A stretch of DNA of 64,000 nt from Desulfurellaceae bacterium bin18 (GTDB lineage: Bacteria; Desulfobacterota; Binatia; Bin18), in the NCBI GenBank assembly GCA_002238415.1, contig MPMI01000004.1:1-64000 (forward strand). Reading direction: 5' to 3'. Positions within the stretch are counted from its first letter, which is position 1; every line of letters begins with the position of its first letter. This document shows, piece after piece, positions 17,128-58,141 of the stretch. Below the pieces are notes generated by a model. It saw nothing but the letters and a program-made list of their open reading frames with translations. It was not told the origin of the DNA and ran no database searches. A program made the position numbers and the translations under genes.

Positions 17128-17546
17128 AGACACTCTATTTTGAAGAGGTCGAAGAAGGCGATGAGTTGCCCCCTATCGACCTGCTCCTGACCAAAGACTT
17201 TGTCCGCACATACGCCAAGACGGCCGGCATGGATTTCCCACGTTTCACAGATGATGAAGGGGCGCGTCAGGAGGGCCTGCCGGGCATGATCGCGCCGGGG
17301 GTCTTAAGTATGGGGCTGCTGGCCCGACTGATCGGCGAGTGGAACCAAGCGGCGCAGATTACCCGGATCGGCACGACGTTTCGCAGTCCGGTCCTGCCTG
17401 ACTGTCATATTCACCTGCTGGGCTTTGTCACGCAAAAGGATGCAGAGCAGCATACGGCGGAGTGCGATATCTGGATGGAGAACGATGAGGGAGAACGCTG
17501 GGTCATTGGCACGGCGACCGTTGTGCTGCCAACCAGAAACTCCTAG
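17124..17546 (+). CDS. MaoC-like acyl dehydratase, catalytic subunit
   Basis: 140 residues of the hot-dog fold: YFEEVEEGDELPPIDLLLTKDFVRTYAKTAGM, then MIAPGVLSMGLLARLIGEWN and FRSPVLPDCHIHLLGFV. The expected hydratase-2 motif (D..H near an N-terminal helix) appears only partly: MDFPRFTDDEGA occupies the usual NPIHxD position, so catalysis may depend on the partner subunit or be altered. With the thiolase, DUF35 and hydrolase genes upstream it suggests a beta-oxidation-like module. Translationally coupled to the preceding gene. Confidence 0.75.
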   Translation: MKTLYFEEVEEGDELPPIDLLLTKDFVRTYAKTAGMDFPRFTDDEGARQEGLPGMIAPGVLSMGLLARLIGEWNQAAQITRIGTTFRSPVLPDCHIHLLGFVTQKDAEQHTAECDIWMENDEGERWVIGTATVVLPTRNS

Positions 17547-17571
17547 AGGACAGTATTCAGAGAGTAGAACA

Positions 17572-18339
17572 ATGCAAAAAAGACGACTTGGCGGTGTGAT
17601 GGTTCTCTGTTTGGTCAGTATGCTCGGACTTGGCCCGTACATGCCAACAGCCCTTGCTCAGAATGGAGCTACGCAGCAGGGGCTGAATGACTCCCTGGAC
17701 ACGCTTGACACCGTCATCCCCGCGTACGAACCGTCTGTTTTTGAACCCTTTAATGAGAAGATGTTCTCCTTCAACATCTGGATGGACGAACATATCCTCC
17801 GACCGGTTGCCCGTTCCTATGCCGGGGCTGTGCCGGAGCCTGCGCGGCTCAGTGTGCGCCGTTTTTTCGACAATATCGGTGTCGTGCCGCGCTTCGCCAA
17901 TAGTCTCTTTCAGCTCAAGCTGGACGGTGCGGCACGGGAAGCCGGACGCTTTGTGATCAATTCGACGATTGGCGGTCTCGGCTTTTTCGATGTTGCCAAA
18001 AATCAGTTTGGACTCGAAAGGAGCCAAGAAGACTTTGGTCAAACGCTCGGGAAGTATGGCGTGGGACCGGGGCCATATCTGGTGCTGCCCTTTATCGGTC
18101 CGTCTACGGTGCGAGATGCCGTTGGCCGGGTCGCGGACGGAGCCATGGACCCGAAGACGTATCTTTTATCCACGGTCGAAGTCACGGCCACGGATGCGGG
18201 CACGCTGATAACCAGTGCGGTCAACGAACGCTCTCTCAATCTCGGACTCTTCGAGAGTGTGGACCGCTTTTCCCTGGATATGTATAGCGCGGTGCAAGAC
18301 TTCTATCTGCAAAATCGGGAGAGGCAAATCGCAGAATAA
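17572..18339 (+). CDS. mlaA: MlaA/VacJ-family outer-membrane lipid-asymmetry protein
   Basis: 255 residues with an N-terminal signal peptide (MVLCLVSMLGLGPYMPTALAQ). The MlaA signature is FEPFNEKMFSFNIWMDEHIL and VARSYAGAVPEPARLSVRRF, then RFVINSTIGGLGFFDVA and GVGPGPYLVLPFIGPSTVRD. MlaA removes misplaced phospholipids from the outer leaflet of the outer membrane. No lipobox Cys is seen, unlike E. coli MlaA, so it may be a soluble or porin-held form. The next genes are the MlaC-like hpnM and the RND protein hpnN, an arrangement common in hopanoid loci. Confidence 0.88.
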   Translation: MQKRRLGGVMVLCLVSMLGLGPYMPTALAQNGATQQGLNDSLDTLDTVIPAYEPSVFEPFNEKMFSFNIWMDEHILRPVARSYAGAVPEPARLSVRRFFDNIGVVPRFANSLFQLKLDGAAREAGRFVINSTIGGLGFFDVAKNQFGLERSQEDFGQTLGKYGVGPGPYLVLPFIGPSTVRDAVGRVADGAMDPKTYLLSTVEVTATDAGTLITSAVNERSLNLGLFESVDRFSLDMYSAVQDFYLQNRERQIAE

Positions 18340-18398
18340 GCCTCTGGCCGCTTGAAAACATCAGGAAGACAACGACTGGAGTGTCGAGGAGCGTGATT

Positions 18399-18989
18399 GT
18401 GGGTAGAACTCTCCTTTTGGTGATAGGTCTTCTTTTTCCGCAGCTCGGCTGGGCGGATTCTCCGGCGGAGGTAACCAAACGGCTGATTTCCACCATGCAA
18501 TCGTGCGGTCAGGAATTTGGTTCTCCCTCAGCCCCTCCACAGTGTACCAGTGAAGAGATTGAAAAAAACCTGGCCGTTGTCCAACTGTCGCGTTGGCTAA
18601 TGGGACCGCACTGGGACACCCTCGGCCAAGAGAAGCAGGACGATTTCATCGCTCTCCTCACACGCTTGCTGCGTGAACTGGCTTATCCGAGAGCGTCGGA
18701 ATTTCTGGCTGACACGCAATTCGAATACGGTGACACGCAGTTACAGGGAAATGAGGCTCTGACTGAGGTCTCGGTCGTGAATCCGGACGAAGGGCGTGTG
18801 ACCATCGGGTTTCGGCTCAACCAGTCGGAGGGCGTGTGGAAGATTTGGGATGTCCGGCTTGACGGGGTCAGTATGGCGAGCAACCTGCGCAAACAGGTAC
18901 AATCGCTCATGTCCAAACAGTCCTACGAAGAGTTGGTGGAGCGGATGCAGCGGACAATCGCGAACGCCAAGACCGAAGAGGCCGGATAA
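18399..18989 (+). CDS. hpnM: MlaC/Ttg2D-family periplasmic lipid-binding protein, HpnM-like
   Basis: About 196 residues with a signal peptide (TLLLVIGLLFPQLGWA). The mature part matches the toluene-tolerance Ttg2/MlaC fold: LSRWLMGPHWDTLGQEKQDDFIALLTRLL, EVSVVNPDEGRVTIGFRL, and VWKIWDVRLDGVSMASNLRKQ. Members next to hopanoid genes are called HpnM and are thought to ferry hopanoids across the periplasm. GTG codons at 18381, 18393 and 18399 are all in frame; AGGAG seven bases before 18399 favours the last. Confidence 0.82.
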   Translation: MGRTLLLVIGLLFPQLGWADSPAEVTKRLISTMQSCGQEFGSPSAPPQCTSEEIEKNLAVVQLSRWLMGPHWDTLGQEKQDDFIALLTRLLRELAYPRASEFLADTQFEYGDTQLQGNEALTEVSVVNPDEGRVTIGFRLNQSEGVWKIWDVRLDGVSMASNLRKQVQSLMSKQSYEELVERMQRTIANAKTEEAG

Positions 18990-19180
18990 CAGCGGACCTC
19001 TCAGACTCTCTCCTCCGCTTGAGTAACCGCCATAGCTAGGATAGGCTGCTCGGCTCAACAGAGGACTGGCAGGACTTGTGCGGGGTATGGGGAACTTGGC
19101 GACGACGTTAGCAGATATCGTGACCCATCCTCCTAGCCTACATACGTTCTCTGTCCTCTCCGTTCTAGCACACTTTATGA

Positions 19181-22015
19181 GTGGAGACCTTATCCGTGCA
19201 GGCGATCCCCCCGTCTTTTAAACAACGCCTCGTTGCCCTGGAAAAACAGGCTCTACGAGCTTGTGCTCGGGGAATCGTTTCATACGCAAAGACGGCACTG
19301 GCTGGCTGTCTGCTGCTTACTGTTGCGGCCTCACTCTACACCGCACGGCATCTCGAACTCGTCACCGGCCGGAATGATTTGATTTCGACCGAAAAGCGCT
19401 ATCTGCAACTCGATGAGGAATATTCCGAAGAGTTTGTCGGCGTCGATCAGGTGGCCGTAGTTGTTGAACCGCAAGACATTCCGCAGGGCAAAGCCTTTGT
19501 GACGCGCCTGGGTGAACGACTCGCCCAGGAGCAGGAGCATATTGCTGAGATTTTTTACCGAGTGGACGTTTCCTCCTTAGAGGGCAAAAAGCTGCTCTAC
19601 CTGCCGGCTGAGGATCTACGCGACTTACAGCGGAGTCTTGAAGACTCGCAAGAGATTATTCATGAGCTGCTGACGAACCCCGGCCTGAATACGCTGTTCG
19701 AGGCGATTAACACCCAAGTCAGTAGTGCCGTTGTTTCGCATCTGGTTGACGAATTCCTCGGGCTGGGAGCCCCATTGGATGAAGACTCCGGTGAGTTCTC
19801 CGACTCTCAGTTGTCCTTCCTCACCGCCTTATTACAAGAGATCGCACGGGCGCTGTACGGACAAGACTACCGCTACCGTTCTCCCTGGGCTGAGTTTTTT
19901 GGTGGGACAGCACAGCTCGATGACGACGGCTTCCTCATTGCCGAGAACCGCAAATACATGTTCCTCATGGTCGAGGCGAAAGAAGACGCCACTGCTGGCT
20001 TCAACGACCTTCAGGATTCGATGGCGGCTATTCGGCAGGCGATTGCCGACCTCAAAGTGGAGTTTCCGGGCCTGGATGCCGGTGTCACCGGCACAAAGGC
20101 ACTGGGCAATGACGAAATGCTCAGCGCTCAGCACGATACGGCCGTGGCAACGGTAGTGTCCCTGTCGGGTATTGCGCTCCTCTACCTGCTCTTTTTCCGA
20201 CGCATTCGGCATCCGCTCTTCATTGTCTCATCGCTCATGATCGGCCTGAGTTGGACGCTGGGTTTCGTCACGCTCTCAGTTGGTCATCTGACGATTATTA
20301 CCGTCTTCATCGCGCCTATGCTGCTCGGCTTGGCCGACGACTTCGGCGTCCACTTCATGACCCGCTATGAGGAAGAGCGGGGCAAGGGGAAGAACCAGGC
20401 CGAAGCCATTACCATCGTGTTCGAGCAGACCGTCCCCAGTATTATTGCGGGGGCGTTGACTACCTCGCTCGCCTTTTTTGCGGTCATACTGGCGGACTTT
20501 CGCGGGGTTCAGGAACTCGGCATCATTTCGGGCGGAGGAATCCTGCTGTCCGTTCTCGCAATCCTGACTTTCCTGCCAGCCTTGATCGTCGGGATGGATA
20601 CGTTCTGGCCCTGGCGTGTTCCCGTGGGGCAGCAGACGGTCTTACAGACAACGTTTTCCGGGTTGGGCAAATATGTCGAACGGAAGAGAAGTCTCCTTTT
20701 CGGAATCGCCGGACTTGGAACGGTGGCAGGACTCCTGGCTCTGCCGTGGGTCTCTTTTGACTATAATCTGCTGAACCTCCAGGCACACGGCACAGAGTCG
20801 GTTGAATGGGAAAAGCGTATTATTGCGAACTCCGAACGTTCGTCCTGGAACGCCTTGGCAACCGCGCCGACGCCAGAAGCGGCGCGCCAAAAGGCTCAAG
20901 CGTTCGCGGCGCTGCCCAGCGTGGAAACCGTTGAGGGCGTTGCGTCACTAATTCCGGACGGACAACAGGAACGTCTCCATATCCTGACAATCATCCGCCC
21001 GCTGCTGAGTGAACTCCCGCCGCTCAGTAATAATCCCCAGGAGGTGGAGGTCGGGCAACTCGAACTGACCCTGGATAAACTCCGTCTCAAAATTCGCGAT
21101 CAGGAAAACGGCAGCGCAACGCTCCTGCACGAGGCGCGCCAACACCTCCTGGCCGTTTTTGAAGCGATCCGAACGCTGCCCGAACAGAACGTCCAACAGC
21201 GTCTGGCCCTTTTTCAGGACGCGCTATTTCTCGACTTTCAGGATAAATGGTCCCTGCTCAGTAATAACCTGTCTCCGGATGGACCGATCACCTTTGCCGA
21301 TGTCCCGCCTCAGTTGCGTAGCCGTTTTGTCAGCCGGGACGGCCAGCGGTTTCTTTTACAGATCTATCCCAAGGAAAATATCTGGGAGCGCGAGCCACTG
21401 ACGGAGTTCATTCGGCAGTTACGTACGGTTGATCCCGACGTTACCGGTTCCCCGATTATTGGCTACGAATCTATTGGGGCGATGCAGAACGGCTATATTG
21501 AGGCGGCCTGGTATGCGTTTCTCGCCATCCTGGTTGTCACCTTTTTGGCGCTCCGACGTATCACGGATGCCCTGCTGGCCATCCTGCCGCTCGGTCTGGG
21601 TATGATCTGGACCGCGGGCCTGATGTGGCTGTGGGACGTGCAATTTAATCTCGCCAACATGGTTGCCGCCCCTCTGATTATTGGTATCGGCGTAGAGAAC
21701 GGCATCCATCTCGTCCATCGCTTCCGGGTAGGCCGTGGCGGCTCGGTCGTCAGTTTGATTGCCGGCAGTACCGGCCAGGCGGTCGTACTATTCTCACTGA
21801 CGACCATGGTCGGGTTTGGCAGTCTCATGGTTGCCCAATACTATGGTATTTTCAGTATGGGCCTGCTGCTGAGTCTGGCAGTCGGGAGTGTCCTGGTCGC
21901 CTCTATTGTGGTCTTGCCGCTGCTTTTATATGAGTCTATTGGGTTTATTGGGTCCTTTGCGTCTGACCCAATGGACCCAATAAACCCAACAGACCCAACG
22001 GATTCTCATGGTTAG
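19181..22015 (+). CDS. hpnN: RND/MMPL-family hopanoid transporter HpnN
   Basis: 944 residues with two MMPL/SSD-type membrane halves. TM1 is near residues 31-50 (TALAGCLLLTVAASLY). Then comes a long periplasmic loop, a cluster of helices around 325-460 (GIALLYLLFF, IITVFIAPMLLGLADDFGVHF), a second TM near 505, and the second cluster around 780-930 (AFLAILVVTFLAL, MVAAPLIIGIGVENGIHLVHRF). The GLADDFGVHF and GVENGIHL motifs are the RND proton-relay region. HpnN moves hopanoids to the outer membrane. The last 30 residues (FASDPMDPINPTDPTDSHG) are encoded by a repeat hairpin and are not part of the family. The start is GTG. The stop overlaps the next gene by eight bases. Confidence 0.87.
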   Translation: METLSVQAIPPSFKQRLVALEKQALRACARGIVSYAKTALAGCLLLTVAASLYTARHLELVTGRNDLISTEKRYLQLDEEYSEEFVGVDQVAVVVEPQDIPQGKAFVTRLGERLAQEQEHIAEIFYRVDVSSLEGKKLLYLPAEDLRDLQRSLEDSQEIIHELLTNPGLNTLFEAINTQVSSAVVSHLVDEFLGLGAPLDEDSGEFSDSQLSFLTALLQEIARALYGQDYRYRSPWAEFFGGTAQLDDDGFLIAENRKYMFLMVEAKEDATAGFNDLQDSMAAIRQAIADLKVEFPGLDAGVTGTKALGNDEMLSAQHDTAVATVVSLSGIALLYLLFFRRIRHPLFIVSSLMIGLSWTLGFVTLSVGHLTIITVFIAPMLLGLADDFGVHFMTRYEEERGKGKNQAEAITIVFEQTVPSIIAGALTTSLAFFAVILADFRGVQELGIISGGGILLSVLAILTFLPALIVGMDTFWPWRVPVGQQTVLQTTFSGLGKYVERKRSLLFGIAGLGTVAGLLALPWVSFDYNLLNLQAHGTESVEWEKRIIANSERSSWNALATAPTPEAARQKAQAFAALPSVETVEGVASLIPDGQQERLHILTIIRPLLSELPPLSNNPQEVEVGQLELTLDKLRLKIRDQENGSATLLHEARQHLLAVFEAIRTLPEQNVQQRLALFQDALFLDFQDKWSLLSNNLSPDGPITFADVPPQLRSRFVSRDGQRFLLQIYPKENIWEREPLTEFIRQLRTVDPDVTGSPIIGYESIGAMQNGYIEAAWYAFLAILVVTFLALRRITDALLAILPLGLGMIWTAGLMWLWDVQFNLANMVAAPLIIGIGVENGIHLVHRFRVGRGGSVVSLIAGSTGQAVVLFSLTTMVGFGSLMVAQYYGIFSMGLLLSLAVGSVLVASIVVLPLLLYESIGFIGSFASDPMDPINPTDPTDSHG
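21939..21989. repeat. GGGTCC/GGACCC hairpin repeat at the hpnN 3' end
   Basis: TTGGGTTTATTGGGTCC (21939-21955) and GGACCCAATAAACCCAA (21973-21989) form a perfect 17-bp inverted repeat with a 17-base spacer. It is built from 8-9 base units (TATTGGGTC-like) related to those at 58150-58250. It lies inside the hpnN reading frame and ends 18 bases before the next start codon, so the hairpin would sit in the mRNA between hpnN and the decarboxylase genes. Confidence 0.75.
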
Positions 22016-22493
22016 CGGACCCCAGTTTGTGCAACACCTCAGGAATGCCGGCTTCGACTTTTTCACCGGGGTGCCCTGCTCTTTGGTCAAAAGTATTATT
22101 GCCACGCTTGAAGAACGGGGCGGCTATATTGCCGAGACACGCGAAGATGCGGCGGTGGGCCTGGCGGCAGGAGCCTATCTGGCCGGCAAACAGCCTGTTG
22201 TCATTATGCAGAATTCCGGCCTGGGGGTCTGCCTGAACGCGCTGTCTTCTCTCAGCTTGATCTATGCGCTGCCCTGTTTGCTGTTGATTACGTGGCGCGG
22301 CTATCAGGGTAAAGACGCGCCGGAGCATATCATTATGGGAGACATTCTGCCCGAGCTGTTATCCACCCTGAAGATTCCGTATCGGGTGCTTGAAGAACAC
22401 ACCCTTGAGGACGCGATTGTCTGGGCTGCCTCAACCCTGAAGCAGACGAGTCGCCCGACGGCACTGGTCCTTCCGCCTGGAGTTGCCGCATGA
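22008..22493 (+). CDS. Phosphonopyruvate (or sulfopyruvate) decarboxylase, alpha-type subunit
   Basis: 161 residues, the pyrimidine-binding half of a thiamine-diphosphate enzyme: FFTGVPCSLVKSIIATLEE, ETREDAAVGLAAGAYLAGK with the Glu that activates TPP, and MQNSGLGVCLNALSSLS. It matches the N-terminal half of phosphonopyruvate decarboxylase (Ppd) or ComD of sulfopyruvate decarboxylase. The TPP-pyrophosphate half is the next gene, overlapping by four bases. PhnW, which uses phosphonoacetaldehyde, lies two genes on, and favours the phosphonate reaction: phosphonopyruvate to phosphonoacetaldehyde plus CO2. The ATG lies within the last codons of hpnN, so expression is coupled to the transporter. 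Confidence 0.78.
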   Translation: MVSGPQFVQHLRNAGFDFFTGVPCSLVKSIIATLEERGGYIAETREDAAVGLAAGAYLAGKQPVVIMQNSGLGVCLNALSSLSLIYALPCLLLITWRGYQGKDAPEHIIMGDILPELLSTLKIPYRVLEEHTLEDAIVWAASTLKQTSRPTALVLPPGVAA

Positions 22494-23059
22494 ACCTGGC
22501 CCAGGCCCTGAGTGTGGTTATACCTCTCTTACAGGACGCCCTGGTTGTCCATGCGAATGGGTTTATCTCGCGTGAGTCTTTCAATCTTGAGGATCGGCTC
22601 GGCAATTTCTATATGATCGGCTCAATGGGCCTGGCCTCGTCTATTGCGCTCGGCGTGGCCCTGAGTAAACCCGAGCGGCGCGTGGTCGTCTTTGACGGGG
22701 ATGGCAATGTCCTCATGAATATGGGCTCGCTGGCCCTGATCGGCGCGCAGCAGCCGCGCAATCTGGTTCACCTTGTTTTTGATAACGAAGTTTACGGTTC
22801 GACGGGCAACCAGCCGACGATTTCCAGTCGCGTAGCGCTCGACGAAGTGGCGCGAGCGAGCGGCTATGTCGAGACACGGCGCGCGGAGGATGCCGACCAA
22901 CTGCGCGGCGCAGCGCAGGACCTGCTGGTGCGAGATGGCCCGTCCTTTCTGCTGATTAAAATTGAGCCGGACCGGCAAGAGCGTCACATTGGTCGTATTA
23001 CGCACGAGCCACAGCACATTGTCAGACGCTTTATGGAGGCCATTCATCAGGACGTGTAG
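22490..23059 (+). CDS. Phosphonopyruvate (or sulfopyruvate) decarboxylase, beta-type subunit
   Basis: 189 residues, the TPP-pyrophosphate half: NFYMIGSMGLASSIALGVAL, the GDG motif in VVFDGDGNVLMNMGSLA, and the metal-binding Asn in LVFDNEVYGSTGNQ. Ppd is usually one chain of about 380 residues; here it is split into two genes like ComDE. ATGA overlap with the alpha gene and TGGAG upstream indicate coupled translation. With the alpha subunit it would form phosphonoacetaldehyde in the cytoplasm. Sulfopyruvate decarboxylase is the main alternative, made less likely by the phnW neighbour. Confidence 0.78.
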   Translation: MNLAQALSVVIPLLQDALVVHANGFISRESFNLEDRLGNFYMIGSMGLASSIALGVALSKPERRVVVFDGDGNVLMNMGSLALIGAQQPRNLVHLVFDNEVYGSTGNQPTISSRVALDEVARASGYVETRRAEDADQLRGAAQDLLVRDGPSFLLIKIEPDRQERHIGRITHEPQHIVRRFMEAIHQDV

Positions 23060-23095
23060 GCCTCATTCTAACTCTCCGTCCCTCGCGGTTTCACG

Positions 23096-24184
23096 ATGCA
23101 ACAATACATTCTTCTGAATCCCGGCCCCGTCAACGTTTCTCCGCGTGTCCGGCAGGCTCTCCTGCGTGGAGACCTGTGCCATCGGGAAGAAGAGTTTTCC
23201 GACCTCCTGGCTATGGTTCGCGCCAATCTGCTACAGGCGTTTGCCCCGCAAGGCTATACCGCGGTGGTGGTGAGCGGATCGGGCACCTTGGCGGTTGAGG
23301 CCATGGTCTCGTCGGCTCTGACAGAGGGAGGCAAGCTCCTGGTGATTAACAACGGCGTCTATGGTGACCGGATGCGCCAGATGGCCGAAGCCCACCGTAT
23401 CCCGACCGTAGAATTGAGCTATGCCTGGACTGAAGCCCCAAGCCCGGAGCAAATTGAATCCACCCTGAGAAATGACCCCACTATCGCGGCGGTAGCCCTG
23501 GTCCAGCATGAGACCACCACTGGCCTGCTCAACCCGGTGACGGAAATTGGCCGTGTTGTACGTCAGGCGGGCCGATTGTTTCTGCTTGACGCGGTGAGTG
23601 CGCTTGGTGGTGAAGACCTCGATGTTATGCGCGATAGCGTGGACCTGTGTGCCTGTACAGCCAACAAATGTATCCAGGGTCAACCGGGTGTTGCCTTTGT
23701 GTTGGTCCGGAACGAGGTCATGGCGGCTATGCAGGACTATCCCCGCCGTTCGCTATACCTCCACCTACCACTGCACTGGGAGGCGCAGGAACGCCGCAGT
23801 ATTCCATTTACGCCAGCCGTCCCGGCCTGGTATGCGCTGGATGCCGCTCTTGATGAACTCCTGGAGGAAACCCCTGCGGGACGGGTCGAACGCTACCGTC
23901 AGGCCGCCCGGTTCCTACGCGCCGGCTTTGCGGAGCTCGGACTCTCTTTCCTCCTTCCCCCGGAGTCACGCTCCAACTCCCTGACCTCGCTGGTCTTGCC
24001 CCAGGGTATTTCGTATCCCCGTTTGCATGACGATCTCAAACAGCGTGGCTTTGTCATTTACGAGGGGCAGGGGAAACTCCGAACCGATATTTTCCGAGTC
24101 GCCAATATGGGGCATCTGACCCTGGACGATTTTCGGCTTTTTCTCGATGCCCTCAAAGATGTGTTATCAGGTGGGAGGCCATGA
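23096..24184 (+). CDS. phnW: 2-aminoethylphosphonate:pyruvate aminotransferase
   Basis: 362 residues of the class V PLP aminotransferases. LLNPGPVNVSPRVRQAL and DLCHREEEF open the chain, VVSGSGTLAVEAMVSS is the substrate loop, and the PLP lysine is in CTANKCIQGQPGVAF near residue 192. The NPGP-(V/L)NVS..V...L and CHRE-EF signatures are those of 2-aminoethylphosphonate aminotransferases. In a biosynthetic setting it aminates phosphonoacetaldehyde to 2-aminoethylphosphonate (AEP). It follows the decarboxylase genes by 36 bases and overlaps the nucleotidyltransferase gene by four. No AEP degradation gene (phnX) is nearby, which favours biosynthesis. Confidence 0.85.
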   Translation: MQQYILLNPGPVNVSPRVRQALLRGDLCHREEEFSDLLAMVRANLLQAFAPQGYTAVVVSGSGTLAVEAMVSSALTEGGKLLVINNGVYGDRMRQMAEAHRIPTVELSYAWTEAPSPEQIESTLRNDPTIAAVALVQHETTTGLLNPVTEIGRVVRQAGRLFLLDAVSALGGEDLDVMRDSVDLCACTANKCIQGQPGVAFVLVRNEVMAAMQDYPRRSLYLHLPLHWEAQERRSIPFTPAVPAWYALDAALDELLEETPAGRVERYRQAARFLRAGFAELGLSFLLPPESRSNSLTSLVLPQGISYPRLHDDLKQRGFVIYEGQGKLRTDIFRVANMGHLTLDDFRLFLDALKDVLSGGRP

Positions 24185-24939
24185 AAGCGATTATCCTCGC
24201 GGCCGGTGTGGGCAAACGATTTCGGGCCATCACCGACCATCGGCCCAAATGTTTGATTCAGGTCAGTGGTAAAACCTTGCTCGAACGCACCCTCACCGCT
24301 TTAGGAGCTGCTGGGGTCCGAGAAGCAGTCATCGTGATCGGCTATCGTGGGGACATGATTGTCGAAGAAATCGGTGAGCGGTGCGGCGGCGTGAGCGTGC
24401 GCTATATCCGGAACCCACAGTACGAAAAGGGCGCCATCCTGTCGCTCTGGAGCGCACGCCAAGATTTCGACACCGACCTGCTGATTATGGATGCCGATGT
24501 ACTGTTCCCGGTGCGTTTGCTGAAGCGCTTGGTGCAATCCGAACACGCGAGCTGTTTCTTGCTTGACGCGAGTTCCGAGAATACCGGCGAAGAACAAATG
24601 CTACTCACCCGCGCCGGGCGGGTGCTGACGATTATCCGGGGTGGCGCGGGCGACTACGACCTGGTGGGCGAGTCGGTCGGTTTTCTCAAGGTCGCGCGAG
24701 ACGTGGCTCCGCTGCTCCGCTCTATCCTCGATGACTGTGTGGCGCAGGGCCGAGACACGATTGAGCATGAAGAAGCCTTCCCGGTGTTTCTGGCCCAGCA
24801 CCATGTTGGCTTTGAACAGGTTGACGACCTGCCCTGGACGGAAATCGATTTTCCGCAAGACCTCGAACACGCCGAACGCGATATCCTGCCCGCTATCGAA
24901 CGCCTCGACGCGCTTGACTTGGCCATCAGTTCGGCCTGA
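24181..24939 (+). CDS. Nucleotidyltransferase, possible AEP cytidylyltransferase (PntC-like)
   Basis: 252 residues with the sugar-nucleotidyltransferase fold: MKAIILAAGVGKRF (GxGxRF nucleotide loop), RPKCLIQVSGKTLLERTL, YIRNPQYEKGAILSLWSA and the metal site LLIMDADVLFP. The PKCL and NPxYxxxxxxxSLW patterns recall LicC/PntC-type cytidylyltransferases, which activate phosphocholine or 2-aminoethylphosphonate with CTP. Overlapping phnW by four bases, it most likely makes CMP-AEP, the donor for adding AEP to a lipid or glycan. A sugar-phosphate nucleotidyltransferase is the alternative. In many bacteria this domain is fused to PEP mutase; here it stands alone. Confidence 0.7.
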   Translation: MKAIILAAGVGKRFRAITDHRPKCLIQVSGKTLLERTLTALGAAGVREAVIVIGYRGDMIVEEIGERCGGVSVRYIRNPQYEKGAILSLWSARQDFDTDLLIMDADVLFPVRLLKRLVQSEHASCFLLDASSENTGEEQMLLTRAGRVLTIIRGGAGDYDLVGESVGFLKVARDVAPLLRSILDDCVAQGRDTIEHEEAFPVFLAQHHVGFEQVDDLPWTEIDFPQDLEHAERDILPAIERLDALDLAISSA

Positions 24940-24942
24940 AGT

Positions 24943-25842
24943 ATGCCTGCTCCCGTCCGTGTCGCCCGCTATCTGATCGTCAACGGGGACGACTTCGGCC
25001 TGTCCGCTCAGGTCAATGCCGGCATATTGCACGCCCATCAGCAGGGCATTCTGACGAATACCAGCCTCATGGTCACGGCTCCGGCCTGGGAGGAAGCAGT
25101 CGAGCTTGCCCGCTCGACACAACGCCTCGGGGTTGGACTGCATGTGACATTAGTCCAGGGGCGGGCTGCTCTCTCCCGACAGCATCTCCGCACGATCATC
25201 GACAGCGAGGGGAATTTTACCCACGATCCAACCTGGGCCGGCTTGCGCTATTACTTTTCCCAGCAAGCGCGGGAAGAAATCCGGGCCGAATGCCGAGCCC
25301 AGATTGAACGTTTTCTGGAAACGGGCCTCCCCCTGTCCCATATTGATGGACATCTCAATATCCATATGCACCCGGTCGTTATGGACGCTCTCCTGGCGCT
25401 CGCACAGGAATACCATATTCCGGCTATGCGCCTGACCCGAGAGAACCTGACGACCAGCCTGATGCTCGATCCGCACCACGCTTTGAGGAAACGCTGGGAA
25501 TCCTTTGTCTTTACATCTCTTGCCCGGACGACAGAGAAAAAACTGTGGCGTGCTTGTATTCCCTACCCGGATCATCTGTTTGGCCTGCATCAAAGTGGCG
25601 CTGTGGATGAATCTTACCTGCTCGGCCTGCTTCCGCGACTCCAAGCCGGCGTAACGGAACTGTACTGCCATCCCTCCTTCTTGCCGTGTCCCGAAGTCGA
25701 ACGGTGGACTCCAACGTATCAACGAGATGTTGAGCTTGCGGCCCTCACGAGTCCGACGGTGCGAGCGGCAGCCGCGGAAGAGAATATCCGGTTCGTGAAT
25801 TACCGTGATCTCCCGTCGCTTCGTGAAGAAGCGGGGGATTAA
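24943..25842 (+). CDS. hpnK: HpnK, hopanoid-associated ChbG/YdjC-family deacetylase
   Basis: 299 residues. YdjC/ChbG signature: YLIVNGDDFGLSAQVNAGIL (metal-binding Asp pair), VGLHVTLVQGRAA, and LSHIDGHLNIHMHPVV (His ligands). HpnK deacetylates the N-acetylglucosamine attached to bacteriohopanetetrol by HpnI, on the route to the cyclitol ether. It starts three bases after the nucleotidyltransferase stop and its 3' end overlaps the convergent hpnI by four bases. The tight join to the phosphonate genes is the main reason to link the two pathways. Confidence 0.87.
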   Translation: MPAPVRVARYLIVNGDDFGLSAQVNAGILHAHQQGILTNTSLMVTAPAWEEAVELARSTQRLGVGLHVTLVQGRAALSRQHLRTIIDSEGNFTHDPTWAGLRYYFSQQAREEIRAECRAQIERFLETGLPLSHIDGHLNIHMHPVVMDALLALAQEYHIPAMRLTRENLTTSLMLDPHHALRKRWESFVFTSLARTTEKKLWRACIPYPDHLFGLHQSGAVDESYLLGLLPRLQAGVTELYCHPSFLPCPEVERWTPTYQRDVELAALTSPTVRAAAAEENIRFVNYRDLPSLREEAGD

Positions 25843-26981
25843 TTGACGCGAACCATGCGGCCGTCTTTTTGGAGCCGGAAGGTATACTCCCGCCAGCGGA
25901 CGGTGTTGCCCCACAGGCTTGCACACCAGACAACAAAAGAGAGGAGGTCCGTAAGGAGGGTCAGCAGAATAGCGGGACGCGGCAGCGTCGATTGCAGAAA
26001 GGCAGTGTTCATCAGCGCAGCGGTCAGGAGGCGGACTGCTATGACGCCGAGAGCGAGCACGGTCATCTCGAAAGACGACCAAAAACAGAGCAGACTCGCA
26101 TAGGCCCAGACCGTGCCAAACGTCACAACCGTACTGATATAGCCGCCGGGACGACAGTTTCGTTGCGTTCTCGCCCAGCGCAACTGATGGGAAAATAACC
26201 CGCGCAGCGAGCCCGCATCGGGACGGGTTTCAACAACGGTGGGCAGGACCCGCAACCGGTAGCCGGCCTGGCTAATCAGATACCCCAGGTAATAGTCATC
26301 CGCCAGATAATCGGACAGCCTGGCAAATCCCCCAATCGCGTCGAGGCAGGTGCGTTTGAGCGCCATGGTTGCGCCGAAGGCATACGCGGGCCGTTCGACC
26401 TGGCTGCCAATCACGACCTGGGTGGTAAACGTCGTGTTGATCATGAGCGATTCCAGCAGGGCCGGCAGGGGCTGGCCGGAACCACCACGGTACACACAGG
26501 TGACCAGCCCTGTTTCCGCCTGCGTTAAGGGCGGGATAATCGCCCGCAAGTAATCGGGCTCAACACAGACATCACTGTCGGTAATGACGAGATAGTCATA
26601 CTTCATTTGCGGCGTCAGATGGTGCAGGGTACTGACCTTGTAATTGGTCCCGATCACAGCAGACGCAACAACCAGAGTAATATCGTACTGGGGAAAATCG
26701 TGCTGCACTTTCTTGACAATGGCCACCGCCGGGTCATTAGGGTCGCGGACGCCACACAGGATTTGAAAGGTCGGGTAATCGAGTCGACAAAAGCTCGCCA
26801 GACTGTCGTACAAATCGGGCGGTGCGCCTTTGAGCGGCTTGAGAATAGTGACCGGAGGAAGGGCTGTGCCAAGGGCCGGGCGCGGACGGAAAAAACGCCA
26901 CGCCGCATAGATACTAAAAAGATAATAGACCAGGGCAATGCACAGCAGGCCAACCAGGAACCAGAGAGCGAGAAAGGACAT
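25839..26981 (-). CDS. hpnI: HpnI, bacteriohopanetetrol glycosyltransferase
   Basis: 380 residues. One N-terminal membrane helix (LWFLVGLLCIALVYYLFSIY), a GT2 catalytic domain of the ceramide-glucosyltransferase type with VTILKPLKG, TDSDVCVEP (DxD), DDYYLGYLI, and the QLRWARTQR (QxxRW) acceptor motif, then two or three C-terminal helices (FWSSFEMTVLALGVIAV, LTLLTDLLSFVVWCASLWG). It transfers GlcNAc to bacteriohopanetetrol at the inner membrane. It is convergent with hpnK and followed upstream by hpnJ on the same strand. Confidence 0.9.
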   Translation of the reverse strand: MSFLALWFLVGLLCIALVYYLFSIYAAWRFFRPRPALGTALPPVTILKPLKGAPPDLYDSLASFCRLDYPTFQILCGVRDPNDPAVAIVKKVQHDFPQYDITLVVASAVIGTNYKVSTLHHLTPQMKYDYLVITDSDVCVEPDYLRAIIPPLTQAETGLVTCVYRGGSGQPLPALLESLMINTTFTTQVVIGSQVERPAYAFGATMALKRTCLDAIGGFARLSDYLADDYYLGYLISQAGYRLRVLPTVVETRPDAGSLRGLFSHQLRWARTQRNCRPGGYISTVVTFGTVWAYASLLCFWSSFEMTVLALGVIAVRLLTAALMNTAFLQSTLPRPAILLTLLTDLLSFVVWCASLWGNTVRWREYTFRLQKDGRMVRVN

Positions 26982-27020
26982 GGCTCAGACACAGTCTCCT
27001 CCCGGTCGGGAGGAGACGTA

Positions 27021-28463
27021 TTAGGCGGCCGCAGAAGACGTGGTGCTCATCTCCCGCCGTTTTCGCATGGTGCGGAAAAAATCCTTGCCTTCCTGCCACA
27101 TGCGTTTCCGCTCCTCGGGATCACGTGCCATCTTTTTTACGGCTTTGAAGATGTAACGCGGGCGGAGGTAATACGAGCGGTAAAATTTCTCAACCGTTTC
27201 AAAAATTTCTTCCCCGGACAGGTTGGGATAGTTGATCACGCACTGCTGATAGCCTGACTCGCCCACCATATCCTCGGCCTTGATATAGCCGTTATCAAGG
27301 GCAAAATCGTAAAAGGCGGTGCCAGGATAGGGGGAAGCCAAAGAGACCTGAATGGTTTCCGGATTCATCTCCCGAGCGAAACGCATGGTCTCCTGCATGG
27401 TCTCACGGGTTTCTCCCGGCAGGCCCAAAATAAAGGTACCGTGGATCAAGATGCCAAGCTTGTGGCAGTCCTGAGTAAAACGCCGCGAGGTTTCGAGGGC
27501 CACGCCTTTTTTAATATTCTTGAGAATGGCCGCATTCCCGGACTCATAGCCGACCACAAACAGCCGCAGCCCGCCATCTTTCAGCACCTTGAGGGTCTCG
27601 TAGTCAACATTGCCACGCGCGTTGGTGGACCAGCACAGGCCGAGAGCGCCCATCCTTTTTGCGATCTCGCGTGCCCGTTTCGGGTCGGCGGTAAACGTAT
27701 CGTCATCAAAAAAGACCTCTTTCATACCCGGAAAGAGGCGCTTCATTTCCTGCACTTCCTCAATGACATTGCCCACTGAGCGGGTGCGGTAGGAATGACC
27801 GGTGGTCACCTGCGGCCACAGACAAAACGTGCAGCGTGCCGGACAGCCCCGTCCGGTGTACAGCGACACATAGGGATACTGGCAATACGGGCTATTATAC
27901 TTGCGGAAGTCCAAATCACGGTCATAAATCTGGGTAACAAAGGGCAACTGGTCGAGTTCTTCGTTGGTGAGCGTCGAACGTTCAAGGTTGTGATGGATCT
28001 GTCCGTCCCGGCGATAGCTGATACCGCGGATGTCCTTCCAATCCCATCCCTCGGCAACCTCTTTCATGGAGTAGTCAAACTCTTTGCGCGCGACAATATC
28101 GATGGCTTCCGAGATCTGTAAGGTCCCCTCCGGCTCAGCCGTGGCCTGACCGCCCACAAACGCGATGCGGCAGTCCGGATTTTTTTCTTTGATCAGTTCC
28201 GCGGTCTGCGCGTCCAATTTCACCGACGGCGTACTGGTGTGCAGCACAACAAAATCGTACTCTTTGGCGATATCAACGGTCTGCGCCTGATTCAGCCCTT
28301 CGGGCGGCGCGTCCAGCACGCGACTGTTCTCGATCATGCCGGCCGGATAACACAGCCAGGTCGGATACCAGAACGACCAGACCTCACGAGTTGCCTGATA
28401 GCGGGAGCCTGCTCCCCCATCGAAATTTTCATATGCAGGCGGATTCAAAAACAATGTACGCAT
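27021..28463 (-). CDS. hpnJ: HpnJ, hopanoid radical SAM enzyme
   Basis: 480 residues. An N-terminal B12-binding-like Rossmann domain (MRTLFLNPPAYENFDGGAGS, then FVVLHTSTPSVKLDAQTAELI) precedes a radical SAM barrel with the iron-sulfur motif CPARCTFCLW near residue 210 and EVFFDDDTFTADPKRAREI. HpnJ is thought to contract the glucosamine ring to the cyclitol ether after HpnI and HpnK. It is the distal upstream gene of an hpnJ-hpnI pair with a 39-base gap. GGAAGGAG lies upstream of the start. Confidence 0.9.
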   Translation of the reverse strand: MRTLFLNPPAYENFDGGAGSRYQATREVWSFWYPTWLCYPAGMIENSRVLDAPPEGLNQAQTVDIAKEYDFVVLHTSTPSVKLDAQTAELIKEKNPDCRIAFVGGQATAEPEGTLQISEAIDIVARKEFDYSMKEVAEGWDWKDIRGISYRRDGQIHHNLERSTLTNEELDQLPFVTQIYDRDLDFRKYNSPYCQYPYVSLYTGRGCPARCTFCLWPQVTTGHSYRTRSVGNVIEEVQEMKRLFPGMKEVFFDDDTFTADPKRAREIAKRMGALGLCWSTNARGNVDYETLKVLKDGGLRLFVVGYESGNAAILKNIKKGVALETSRRFTQDCHKLGILIHGTFILGLPGETRETMQETMRFAREMNPETIQVSLASPYPGTAFYDFALDNGYIKAEDMVGESGYQQCVINYPNLSGEEIFETVEKFYRSYYLRPRYIFKAVKKMARDPEERKRMWQEGKDFFRTMRKRREMSTTSSAAA

Positions 28464-56065: not shown

Positions 56066-57085
56066 TCAGGTCGGGGACGTTTCCTTCGGGAAAAAGTCAT
56101 AGCCGGCGCGGGCCAGAACGAGCAGACCGACCGAGTTGTAGACGGCCTCGCGCGCGCGTTTGAGGAGCATGAGCGTCAGGCCGGCGCCCTCCTCGATACC
56201 GAGCAGACGGCACAGGAATATCCCACCCGCTTCACGCACCCCCAACGCGCCGGGGATGATCAACGCCGCGGCCGTGACGGGTTGAATCATGGTCTCAATA
56301 ATGAGGGCGTCCATCCAACTGACCGGTGCGCCGATCAGGATCAGAAACACATAGACTTCCACCGCTCCAACCGCCCAGCCCAGAAAATGGTACAGGCTGG
56401 CCGCAAGAAAATCTTTGGCGTCTCCGTCATACAGATGAAAAAGATGCGCATCGACGTGTTTGGCCCGCTCCTGCCAGCGCGCCAGGCGGTTCCAGTTGGG
56501 AAATCGGCACCGCAGCCATCCAACACATTTTTCAACAAGTCCCCGCTGCTGCCAGCGCACGATGATCATCACAAACCCGTACGCCATGACAAAAACGGCA
56601 CCGAATATCCACCAGGCATGGTAGCCGACATCCATACGATACAGAAAAAACGGCAGGCCCAGCACAATAAAAGCAACCTGAGAGACAGTCAGAGCGGTCT
56701 TGGCAGCGACCACCGACGCCGTGCCAACATCGGAGGTCACACCGTGTTGTCGCAGCAGGTAGACCTTGACGGCCTCGCCACCGACATTCGCCGTTGGGGT
56801 CAGATTATTGATGGCCTCGCCGGCCAGTCGGGTCAACGAGAGCTGAAGAACGGAGAGCTGCTTGGCGGCCGCTGAGCCGCCCATGGTATAGCCCCAGCCC
56901 TTGGCGTCAAACAGCGCCACAAAGCTCTGCGGGATCAGGACCAGGGGAGCGAGCCAGCCGATGTGGTACAGGTGCTGGCCGACCTCGGTAATCCCGACCT
57001 TCCAGAAGAGAACCCCCAGCAGGCTGAGTCCGAGCAGGGCGGCCCCAAGCTGGAGGGCCCGGCTCTTTTTCTGCTCGGCGGTCAT
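56066..57085 (-). CDS. Multi-pass membrane protein, UPF0104/LPG-synthase-like (possible HpnL)
   Basis: 339 residues with 7-8 transmembrane helices (LGAALLGLSLLGVLFWKVGI, AFIVLGLPFFLYRM, WIFGAVFVMAYGFVMIIVRW, VGAVEVYVFLILIGAP). Conserved family segments are RLAGEAINNLTPTANVGGEA and PGALGVREAGGIFLCRLLGI. The family includes lysyl-phosphatidylglycerol synthase transmembrane regions and hopanoid-associated HpnL. With a hopanoid locus 28 kb upstream the HpnL reading is attractive, but other lipid flippase-like roles are open. Confidence 0.7.
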   Translation of the reverse strand: MTAEQKKSRALQLGAALLGLSLLGVLFWKVGITEVGQHLYHIGWLAPLVLIPQSFVALFDAKGWGYTMGGSAAAKQLSVLQLSLTRLAGEAINNLTPTANVGGEAVKVYLLRQHGVTSDVGTASVVAAKTALTVSQVAFIVLGLPFFLYRMDVGYHAWWIFGAVFVMAYGFVMIIVRWQQRGLVEKCVGWLRCRFPNWNRLARWQERAKHVDAHLFHLYDGDAKDFLAASLYHFLGWAVGAVEVYVFLILIGAPVSWMDALIIETMIQPVTAAALIIPGALGVREAGGIFLCRLLGIEEGAGLTLMLLKRAREAVYNSVGLLVLARAGYDFFPKETSPT

Positions 57086-57241: not shown

Positions 57242-58141
57242 CTATTCAGGGGCTCCGGACGGGAGGCCGGCCATCTCTCGAAGAACGGTCGCCAGCGCGC
57301 CCCAGTCGAGGTCGCCCCGGCCTCTGGCAAAGGCGGCCCGTAAATGATTGTCGGCCAAGTCGGCCAGCGGTAAGGGCGCGACCACATCTTTGGCCAGCTT
57401 TTGCATCAGCCCGACATCTTTCAATCCCAGCGCCAGCGCAAAGCCCGCAGGAGCAAACTCCTGCCTGGCGATCCGGCTGCCATAGCCTTGAAACAGAGGC
57501 ACGGGCAGCAGCGCCCGAATCAACTCCAGGACGGTCTCGTTTTGTAAGCCGCCCTTCTCGGCCAGGGTCAGCGCCTCACTGAGGGTTTCGATGCCGGCAA
57601 TCACAAAAAAGTTCCCCACCAGCTTGAGGACATTGGCGAGGTGAGGCTCTTCACCCACCACGATGACCCCCTGCCCCATGACCTCAAACGCGGGCCGGCA
57701 ACGGTCGATGGCCGCGGCTGAGCCAGCCGGACAGATCCACAGTTTTGCCGCGGCTGCGGCCTCGGGACGGCCAAAGACCGGCGAGGCCACAAAATGCGCT
57801 TCCCGGTCGTGATACAGCGGCGCCAGTTCTTTGGTCACGTCGGGCGAGACGGTACTCATATCAACGTGAATCCCGTCCGGTTTGAGGCCGGCCAGAATGC
57901 CGTCCTCGCCCAACGCAATCGCCCGGAGCGCGGCATCGTCGGCAATAATACTGATCACAATATCGGATTGTGCGGCCAGGTCGCGGGGGGAATTGGCCCA
58001 CCGCGCTCCGTTTTGGCGCAGGGTGTCGGCGCGTGAGGCCGTGCGATTAAAAACCGCGAGGGGAAAATCGGCATCGAGCAGATTTTGCGCCATGGGCAGG
58101 CCCATCCGGCCCAGTCCAATAAAGCCAATCGAGGAAGTCAT
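57242..58141 (-). CDS. NAD(P)-dependent beta-hydroxyacid dehydrogenase
   Basis: 299 residues of the 3-hydroxyisobutyrate dehydrogenase family: GFIGLGRMGLPMAQNLLDAD (Rossmann GxGxMG), VDMSTVSPDVTKEL, and the substrate-binding helix with the catalytic Lys in NVLKLVGNFFVIAGIETLSE. Reduces or oxidises a short beta-hydroxyacid; substrate unknown. Its upstream gap carries the GGGTCC repeats. Confidence 0.85.
   Translation of the reverse strand: MTSSIGFIGLGRMGLPMAQNLLDADFPLAVFNRTASRADTLRQNGARWANSPRDLAAQSDIVISIIADDAALRAIALGEDGILAGLKPDGIHVDMSTVSPDVTKELAPLYHDREAHFVASPVFGRPEAAAAAKLWICPAGSAAAIDRCRPAFEVMGQGVIVVGEEPHLANVLKLVGNFFVIAGIETLSEALTLAEKGGLQNETVLELIRALLPVPLFQGYGSRIARQEFAPAGFALALGLKDVGLMQKLAKDVVAPLPLADLADNHLRAAFARGRGDLDWGALATVLREMAGLPSGAPE

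Follow-up and report, generated by a model that had tools for sequence, protein, structure and literature searches.

The window analyzed here is a stretch of 64,000 nucleotides (contig MPMI01000004.1, positions 1 to 64,000) from Desulfurellaceae bacterium bin18, a member of the Binatia, in which genes predicted to make and activate 2-aminoethylphosphonate (AEP) lie inside a locus for hopanoid head-group synthesis and lipid transport. It is contig C82 of the genome G000, a fragmented metagenome-type assembly of 5.24 Mb in 83 contigs that is 96% complete. The relatives compared were 58 genomes, 28 with ppdA (decarboxylase alpha subunit) and 30 without; G numbers denote genomes, L numbers loci, and f5, f7, and f8 Binatia families. 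At the compared loci, which are GC-rich, genes were called with a codon-usage caller. The following features lie in the window:

17572-18339, plus strand: MlaA-family outer-membrane lipoprotein (PF04333, 1.8e-64; the ATG at 17572 lies inside a longer TTG open reading frame, 17425-18339)
18381-18989, plus strand: MlaC/HpnM-like periplasmic lipid carrier (PF05494, 1.9e-21; TIGR03481, 45.9 bits, cut-off 160.1)
19181-22015, plus strand: HpnN-like RND/MMPL lipid transporter (TIGR03480 the best family, 598 bits, cut-off 751.85)
22008-22493, plus strand: ppdA, phosphonopyruvate decarboxylase-like alpha subunit, thiamine pyrophosphate (TPP) N domain (PF02776; TIGR03297, 134.1 bits; TIGR03845, 131.4 bits)
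22490-23059, plus strand: ppdB, phosphonopyruvate decarboxylase-like beta subunit, TPP C domain (PF02775; TIGR03297, 183.8 bits; TIGR03846, 183.4 bits)
23096-24184, plus strand: AEP aminotransferase, PhnW/AepZ (TIGR03301, 360.8 bits, cut-off 360.8)
24181-24939, plus strand: PntC-like cytidylyltransferase, predicted cytidine triphosphate (CTP):AEP (PntC best by profile and predicted structure)
24943-25842, plus strand: HpnK deacetylase (TIGR03473, 309 bits, cut-off 232.6)
25839-26981, minus strand: HpnI glycosyltransferase (TIGR03472, 371.4 bits, cut-off 310)
27021-28463, minus strand: HpnJ radical SAM enzyme for bacteriohopanetetrol cyclitol ether formation (TIGR03471, 725.4 bits, cut-off 577.6)
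56066-57085, minus strand: HpnL-like (LPG_synthase_TM) membrane protein (TIGR03476, 181.3 bits, cut-off 195.65)

The gene names proposed in an earlier note on this locus were upheld for hpnI, hpnJ, hpnK, and the AEP aminotransferase gene, the products of which all scored at or above the curated NCBIfam cut-offs. HpnN, HpnM, and HpnL are termed "-like" because their scores fell below these cut-offs, so that the earlier names of hpnN and hpnM stand only in this reduced form. The tight gene packing described in the same note was exact when checked base by base. The hpnN-like gene extends to 22015 and so overlaps by 8 bases with ppdA, which starts at 22008; ppdA and ppdB overlap by 4 bases, as do the aminotransferase and nucleotidyltransferase (NT) genes; a gap of 36 bp separates ppdB from the aminotransferase gene; and hpnK starts 3 bases past the stop codon of the NT gene. 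The convergent genes hpnK and hpnI share 4 bases. The window genes are under purifying selection (Ka/Ks of 0.07 to 0.26 within the genus).

A survey of hpn loci in other genomes, which the earlier note had suggested as a check on whether the insertion is unique, found the arrangement conserved in at least four Binatia families. The same gene order was present in four other genomes of the genus, in one of them (G006) on a single contig, and the exact overlaps vary by species. The hpnN/ppdA overlap, whose length also differs among species, falls where the 3′ end of hpnN codes for a short Asp-Pro-rich repeat, DPMDPINPTDPTD (window positions 21960-22010). In f5, f7, and f8, pepM, the gene for a phosphoenolpyruvate (PEP)-mutase-like protein, is followed by ppdA, ppdB, the aminotransferase gene, and the NT gene in one run, mostly with 4-base overlaps. 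In Binatia families other than that of the window, a run of pepM, ppdA, ppdB, the aminotransferase gene, the PntC gene, and a gene for a cytidine diphosphate (CDP)-alcohol phosphotransferase lies beside hpnJ/hpnI or hpnK, and the distance from the pepM-to-phosphotransferase run to a divergent hpnJ is 213 to 220 bp. On contig C96 of G009, the NT gene (product 73% identical to that of the window) stands in a row with a PMT-family gene, a PEMT-like methyltransferase gene, hpnK, hpnI, hpnJ, the phosphotransferase gene, and an HpnL-like gene, and the genes from PntC to HpnL-like fit within 11 kb. The corresponding region of G019 runs from pepM through the phosphotransferase gene over about 14.6 kb, with hpnK, hpnI, and hpnJ in between. 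Nitrospirota, Planctomycetota, Rokubacteria, Acidobacteriota, and Minicystis rosea carry homologous clusters, and the mutase fusion described below is found in Omnitrophota and Nitrospinota as well. A bin titled Klebsiella pneumoniae (L058, CAMBZJ010000034.1) carries the Binatia cluster, and its public name is evidently wrong.

PpdA and PpdB scored nearly equally on the phosphonopyruvate and sulfopyruvate decarboxylase models, in both cases below the cut-off; that of TIGR03297 (312.5) belongs to a single-chain model, and the gene is split in two here (134 and 184 bits). What separates the two activities is the gene neighborhood and not the sequence alone. The aminotransferase lies exactly at the TIGR03301 equivalog cut-off, and a phosphonatase (phnX), sought as a test of a catabolic role of PhnW, was not found above the cut-off. 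The cytidylyltransferase-like gene had earlier been assigned to the PntC type, and PntC is indeed its closest solved relative. A profile of 14 Binatia NT homologues matched best to the structure 6pd1, PntC-AEPT of Treponema denticola (6.6e-22), followed by LicC (9.2e-19). The predicted NT model (pLDDT 94.7) gave 6pd2 (PntC) as the best Foldseek match (2.8e-20), and its VIA Z values were 31.3 for PntC, 27.2 for LicC, and about 25 or less for others. By profile and predicted structure, the enzyme is thus nearest to PntC among nucleotidyltransferases. The context fits as well: the gene overlaps that of the aminotransferase by 4 bases, and in other Binatia families its run includes a PepM-like gene. 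In T. denticola PntC, Glu196 and Glu104 contact the AEP amine (PMC6697681); by alignment, the equivalent of Glu196 is the invariant E197, and that of Glu104 is D104, as in LicC. Because one contact is kept and the other is an aspartate as in LicC, the preferred substrate is likely AEP but is not settled.

A candidate for the PEP mutase, which the earlier note had listed as lacking from the window and had proposed to seek elsewhere in the genome, was located on contig C24. This sole PepM-type gene of the genome encodes a PEP-mutase-like domain fused to a second nucleotidyltransferase domain, and its nearest named relatives are Binatia/Binatota bins (77 to 92% identity). The fusion tracks ppdA, being present in 24 of the 28 relatives with ppdA and in none of the 30 without. 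Its PepM-like domain matched PF13714 (1.9e-61), and the PEP mutase 5unc was both the best solved relative by sequence and the best match of the predicted fold (TM 0.97 of the target). Within the genus, pepM lies far from ppdA (997 kb versus 1,875 kb on the single contig of G006). The other three PF13714 proteins of the genome (L002 to L004) were set aside as PEP mutase candidates, being PrpB-type proteins with PKRCG/PRRCG motifs; the PrpB type was likewise seen in L162, a PF13714 protein encoded next to hpnJ in G033.

The search for a CDP-alcohol transferase, likewise proposed earlier, yielded copies on contigs C77 and C4. The phosphotransferase reaches the PF01066 gathering score and has the full DGx2ARx8Gx3Dx3D signature. 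Its gene directly follows the NT gene in G055, G048, G022, G034, and G021, and close homologues lie beside hpnJ in G008, G009, G011, and G014 of the same family as the window and also in G019. More distant homologues lie beside or near hpnJ/hpnI in G026, G046, and G047, all without ppdA. In a tree, the copies of the f8 AEP clusters grouped with the G019 copy that lies beside hpnJ (97/93); the copies of the window's own family, including those on C77 and C4, were placed next to them (88/92). In sister genera, HpnL-like homologues adjoin the phosphotransferase gene and hpnJ; in other phyla, they stand next to the AEP cluster and again beside the phosphotransferase gene. In the window, a 3-hydroxyisobutyrate-dehydrogenase-like gene (57242-58141) adjoins the HpnL-like gene; since a similar pair lies beside hpnJ in genus g2 (L157, L159), the pair looks like a displaced part of an hpn locus. 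Another candidate for the transferase, a CoA-transferase III cluster that one family carries near hpnK, was weighed and dropped.

The link to hopanoid genes recurs within Binatia. In 23 of 25 Binatia loci, at least one of hpnI, hpnJ, hpnK, hpnM, and hpnN is found no more than 10 kb from an AEP gene, a count that takes in an hpnN end in L037; in one of the two exceptions, the contig breaks off close to the NT gene. Three distinct junctions between AEP and hpn genes were found, differing by family (hpnN to ppdA, NT to hpnK, and divergent hpnJ and pepM), which argues for repeated association and not for one inherited accident. The genome itself encodes squalene-hopene cyclase (SHC; contig C38, 1.8e-202) and HpnH (contig C29, 7.5e-113) in addition to HpnI, HpnJ, and HpnK, and these genes support its prediction as a hopanoid producer. 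SHC is present in 24 of the 28 cluster-bearing genomes, and a close phosphotransferase in 22 of the 24 with SHC versus 1 of the 4 without (uncorrected for kinship).

From gene content, order, co-occurrence, motifs, and fold matches, we infer the catalytic activities, the acceptor, and the transport of the following pathway. The PEP-mutase-like fusion encoded on the other contig would turn phosphoenolpyruvate into phosphonopyruvate, which PpdA and PpdB would decarboxylate to phosphonoacetaldehyde, drawing the unfavorable first step forward. The aminotransferase would convert phosphonoacetaldehyde to AEP, and the PntC-like enzyme would form cytidine monophosphate-AEP (CMP-AEP). A CDP-alcohol phosphotransferase (from C77 or C4) would then move the AEP-phosphonyl group onto a membrane-lipid hydroxyl, most likely that of a hopanoid polyol or of its glucosaminyl or cyclitol form made by HpnI-HpnK-HpnJ, and HpnL-, HpnN-, HpnM-, and MlaA-type proteins would move the product. 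On the strength of these genes, AEP is very probably made and activated. Its placement on a lipid by a CDP-alcohol phosphotransferase is probable. Whether the window holds the central part of a phosphonolipid pathway integrated into a hopanoid head-group locus is evenly balanced in our judgment; that the AEP-bearing lipid is a hopanoid falls a little short of that balance. More tentative still is the full proposal that Binatia make phosphonohopanoids, in which CMP-AEP is transferred to a bacteriohopanepolyol by the hpnJ-linked phosphotransferase and the C-P bond is formed by a Cys-containing PEP mutase lineage. Of the earlier suggestion that CMP-AEP is the donor for an AEP-decorated hopanoid, the route from AEP to CMP-AEP is encoded, and the hopanoid acceptor is plausible only, given the cluster-bearing genomes without SHC and HpnH described below. 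Two of the outcomes named in the earlier note as refuting its reading, a genome with no pepM and an arrangement confined to one genome, did not occur. The statement that no phosphono-hopanoid pathway is known agrees with the open-licence literature searched, in which neither a phosphonohopanoid nor a CDP-alcohol phosphotransferase for hopanoids is described.

Several observations weigh against this pathway, and they concern either the enzymes or the acceptor. The mutase reads EDNIFPKRCS where EDKxxxxxNS is expected, with ED(N/S/A)xFPKRCS throughout its clade, and it scored 274.8 bits on TIGR02320 against a cut-off of 319.55, yet this was its best model of all. Because of the deviating motif, which the earlier note did not anticipate, we term the fusion "PEP-mutase-like" and not PepM. 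The Cys of EDNxFPKRCS (position 122) is common to PrpB-type lyases, and in the tree the variant is a paraphyletic grade that lies between lyases and canonical PepM and phosphonopyruvate hydrolase, so the protein could belong to the isocitrate lyase superfamily as a hydrolase or C-C lyase, with no C-P bond made and imported AEP or another amine activated. We consider this improbable, since the remaining active-site positions are kept (D58, D85, D87, E114, K120, S123, R159, and H190 in mussel numbering, by alignment), the best fold match is PEP mutase, ppdAB are its partners in many phyla, and canonical-motif PepM-nucleotidyltransferase fusions head the same gene set (L085 and L088; all or part of it if L086 is included). 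The near-equal scores of PpdA and PpdB on sulfopyruvate decarboxylase models would also fit the synthesis of a sulfonate, with decarboxylase and aminotransferase leading to taurine. This is very unlikely: in several families the gene of the PEP-mutase-like fusion runs straight into ppdA, whose presence it tracks, the aminotransferase scores at the cut-off for the AEP equivalog, NT is nearest to PntC, and a route through CMP and a CDP-alcohol phosphotransferase would not be expected for a sulfonate. That the genes lie together by chance or through a binning or assembly artefact, as might arise in a metagenome-type assembly broken into 83 contigs, is hardly credible in view of the same order in four other genomes of the genus (on a single contig in G006), the recurrent links in other families, and the purifying selection.

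The acceptor is the less certain part, and it is a real possibility, if one we hold below even, that the acceptor for CMP-AEP is not a hopanoid but diacylglycerol, a surface glycan, or a glycolipid of the polyprenyl or lipid A type. The hpn genes would then be adjacent because both sets serve the outer membrane, and transport may be shared. In other phyla, none of about 15 loci with the pathway has an hpn gene within 10 kb; the core and an HpnL-like gene occur without hpnI, hpnJ, hpnK, or hpnN in Nitrospirota, Planctomycetota, Desulfobacca, and others. Neither SHC nor HpnH is encoded in four cluster-bearing Binatia genomes (G021, G031, G045, and G052), and a close phosphotransferase is missing from three of them; even so, three of the four have hpnK next to the AEP genes or not far from them. 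These genomes imply that a hopanoid is not the sole acceptor or that the head-group enzymes there serve another lipid. ArnT-like PMT, ArnC-like, PseC-like, and sugar genes adjoin or lie near some Binatia clusters, an equal fit to a glycan or lipid A-type acceptor, and in the genus of the window, the phosphotransferase gene has no hpn neighbors. Surface glycans or lipids are the predicted site of most bacterial AEP (PMC6697681), which also counts for a non-hopanoid acceptor. Against it, the partners in Binatia are repeatedly the hopanoid head enzymes HpnI, HpnK, and HpnJ, joined through the three junctions, and the phosphotransferase gene adjoins hpnJ or hpnI even where AEP genes are absent (G026, G046, and G047). 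As a separate observation, HpnJ scored above the cut-off in G021, G045, G033, and G054 with no SHC over the cut-off and no HpnH, which suggests that HpnJ acts on a non-hopanoid there.

The variant mutase branch occurs in Binatota, Nitrospirota, Planctomycetota, Omnitrophota, Acidobacteriota, Rokubacteria, Nitrospinota, and Myxococcota, and an intermediate motif, EDNVFPKRNS, was found at L081. In a PepM tree rooted on lyases, canonical PepM and phosphonopyruvate hydrolase emerged from the grade of Cys variants; tentatively, given the long branches, the Cys form would be the older mutase state. A single-clade origin of the variant found no support (approximately unbiased [AU] test, p 0.02, on a quick tree with long branches). 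Free-standing mutase-like proteins with EDNxxPK(R/K)CS motifs occur in Streptomyces sp. SID3343, Phycisphaerales, and Proteobacteria bins (L093 to L095, L097); these have no nucleotidyltransferase domain and no ppd genes nearby. The survey of Rice et al. (2019) retained only EDKxxxxxNS sequences and mentioned 22 fused sequences without the motif (PMC6697681), so the variant branch would have been removed by this filter.

Compared with known systems, the proposed pathway resembles the Pnt pathway of T. denticola in the pairing of an AEP aminotransferase with PntC and the CMP-AEP logic, and in a PepM fused to a MobA-like nucleotidyltransferase alongside a second, free nucleotidyltransferase (PMC6697681). 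It differs in having a CDP-alcohol phosphotransferase, HpnL-like proteins, and hopanoid head genes where the Pnt pathway uses LicD-like transferases acting on cell-wall glycans, and the Binatia mutase lacks the EDKxxxxxNS motif required in the Pnt survey set (PMC6697681). HpnI-HpnK-HpnJ constitute the pathway to the bacteriohopanetetrol glucosamine and cyclitol ether (steps according to PMC12583986); hpnI, hpnK, and hpnJ are clustered here as well, all at curated cut-offs, but are interrupted or flanked by the AEP pathway and, in sister genera, by the CDP-alcohol phosphotransferase gene. The phosphotransferase shares its C-terminal CDP-alcohol phosphotransferase domain and signature with IPCT-DIPPS (CTP:inositol-1-phosphate cytidylyltransferase/CDP-inositol phosphotransferase; 4mnd), and one copy has a weak match to the N-terminal nucleotidyltransferase-like domain. 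It differs by scoring far under the DIPPS cut-off and by its context of AEP and hopanoid genes. Kennedy-type phosphonolipid synthesis is known from Tetrahymena, and sphingophosphonolipids from Bdellovibrio stolpii, the acceptors being diacylglycerol or ceramide. The logic of a CMP-AEP donor and a CDP-alcohol phosphotransferase is the same here, whereas the proposed acceptor is a hopanoid. Phosphonyl tailoring with CMP-AEP is known; a link to hopanoids is undescribed, and the PEP-mutase-like branch stands outside the accepted motif. Hopanoids are bacterial sterol-like lipids and leading molecular fossils. If the proposal is true, a new lipid class would join the C-P bond to hopanoids, with a possible biomarker and an unrecognized pool of phosphonate phosphorus. 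As the EDKxxxxxNS filter discards the EDNxFPKRCS branch, counts of phosphonate producers may be too low. With the route laid out gene by gene, the question of lipid phosphonylation becomes testable in a heterologous host.

Some further genes accompany these clusters. In the family of the window, a squalene-hopene-cyclase-like protein of about 300 to 345 amino acids follows the PEP-mutase fusion (L005:7914-8879, G000:C24); in another Binatia family it lies between pepM and ppdA, and in an Omnitrophota cluster near the NT gene. The remaining coordinates for this protein are L049:9481-10512, L058:11707-12738, and L087:3207-4118, and the copies of the window's family and of Omnitrophota read DLDTT where SHC carries DxDD. 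A PEMT/ICMT-like methyltransferase (PF04191) is encoded beside hpnK in the same family (L147:3453-4259, with relatives in L151 and L160), in L147 two genes from the NT gene, and could N-methylate the aminoethyl head group. Between 29145 and 53008, the window holds five TonB-dependent receptor genes of one family (starting at 29145, 42364, 45109, 47820, and 50492), four of them consecutive.

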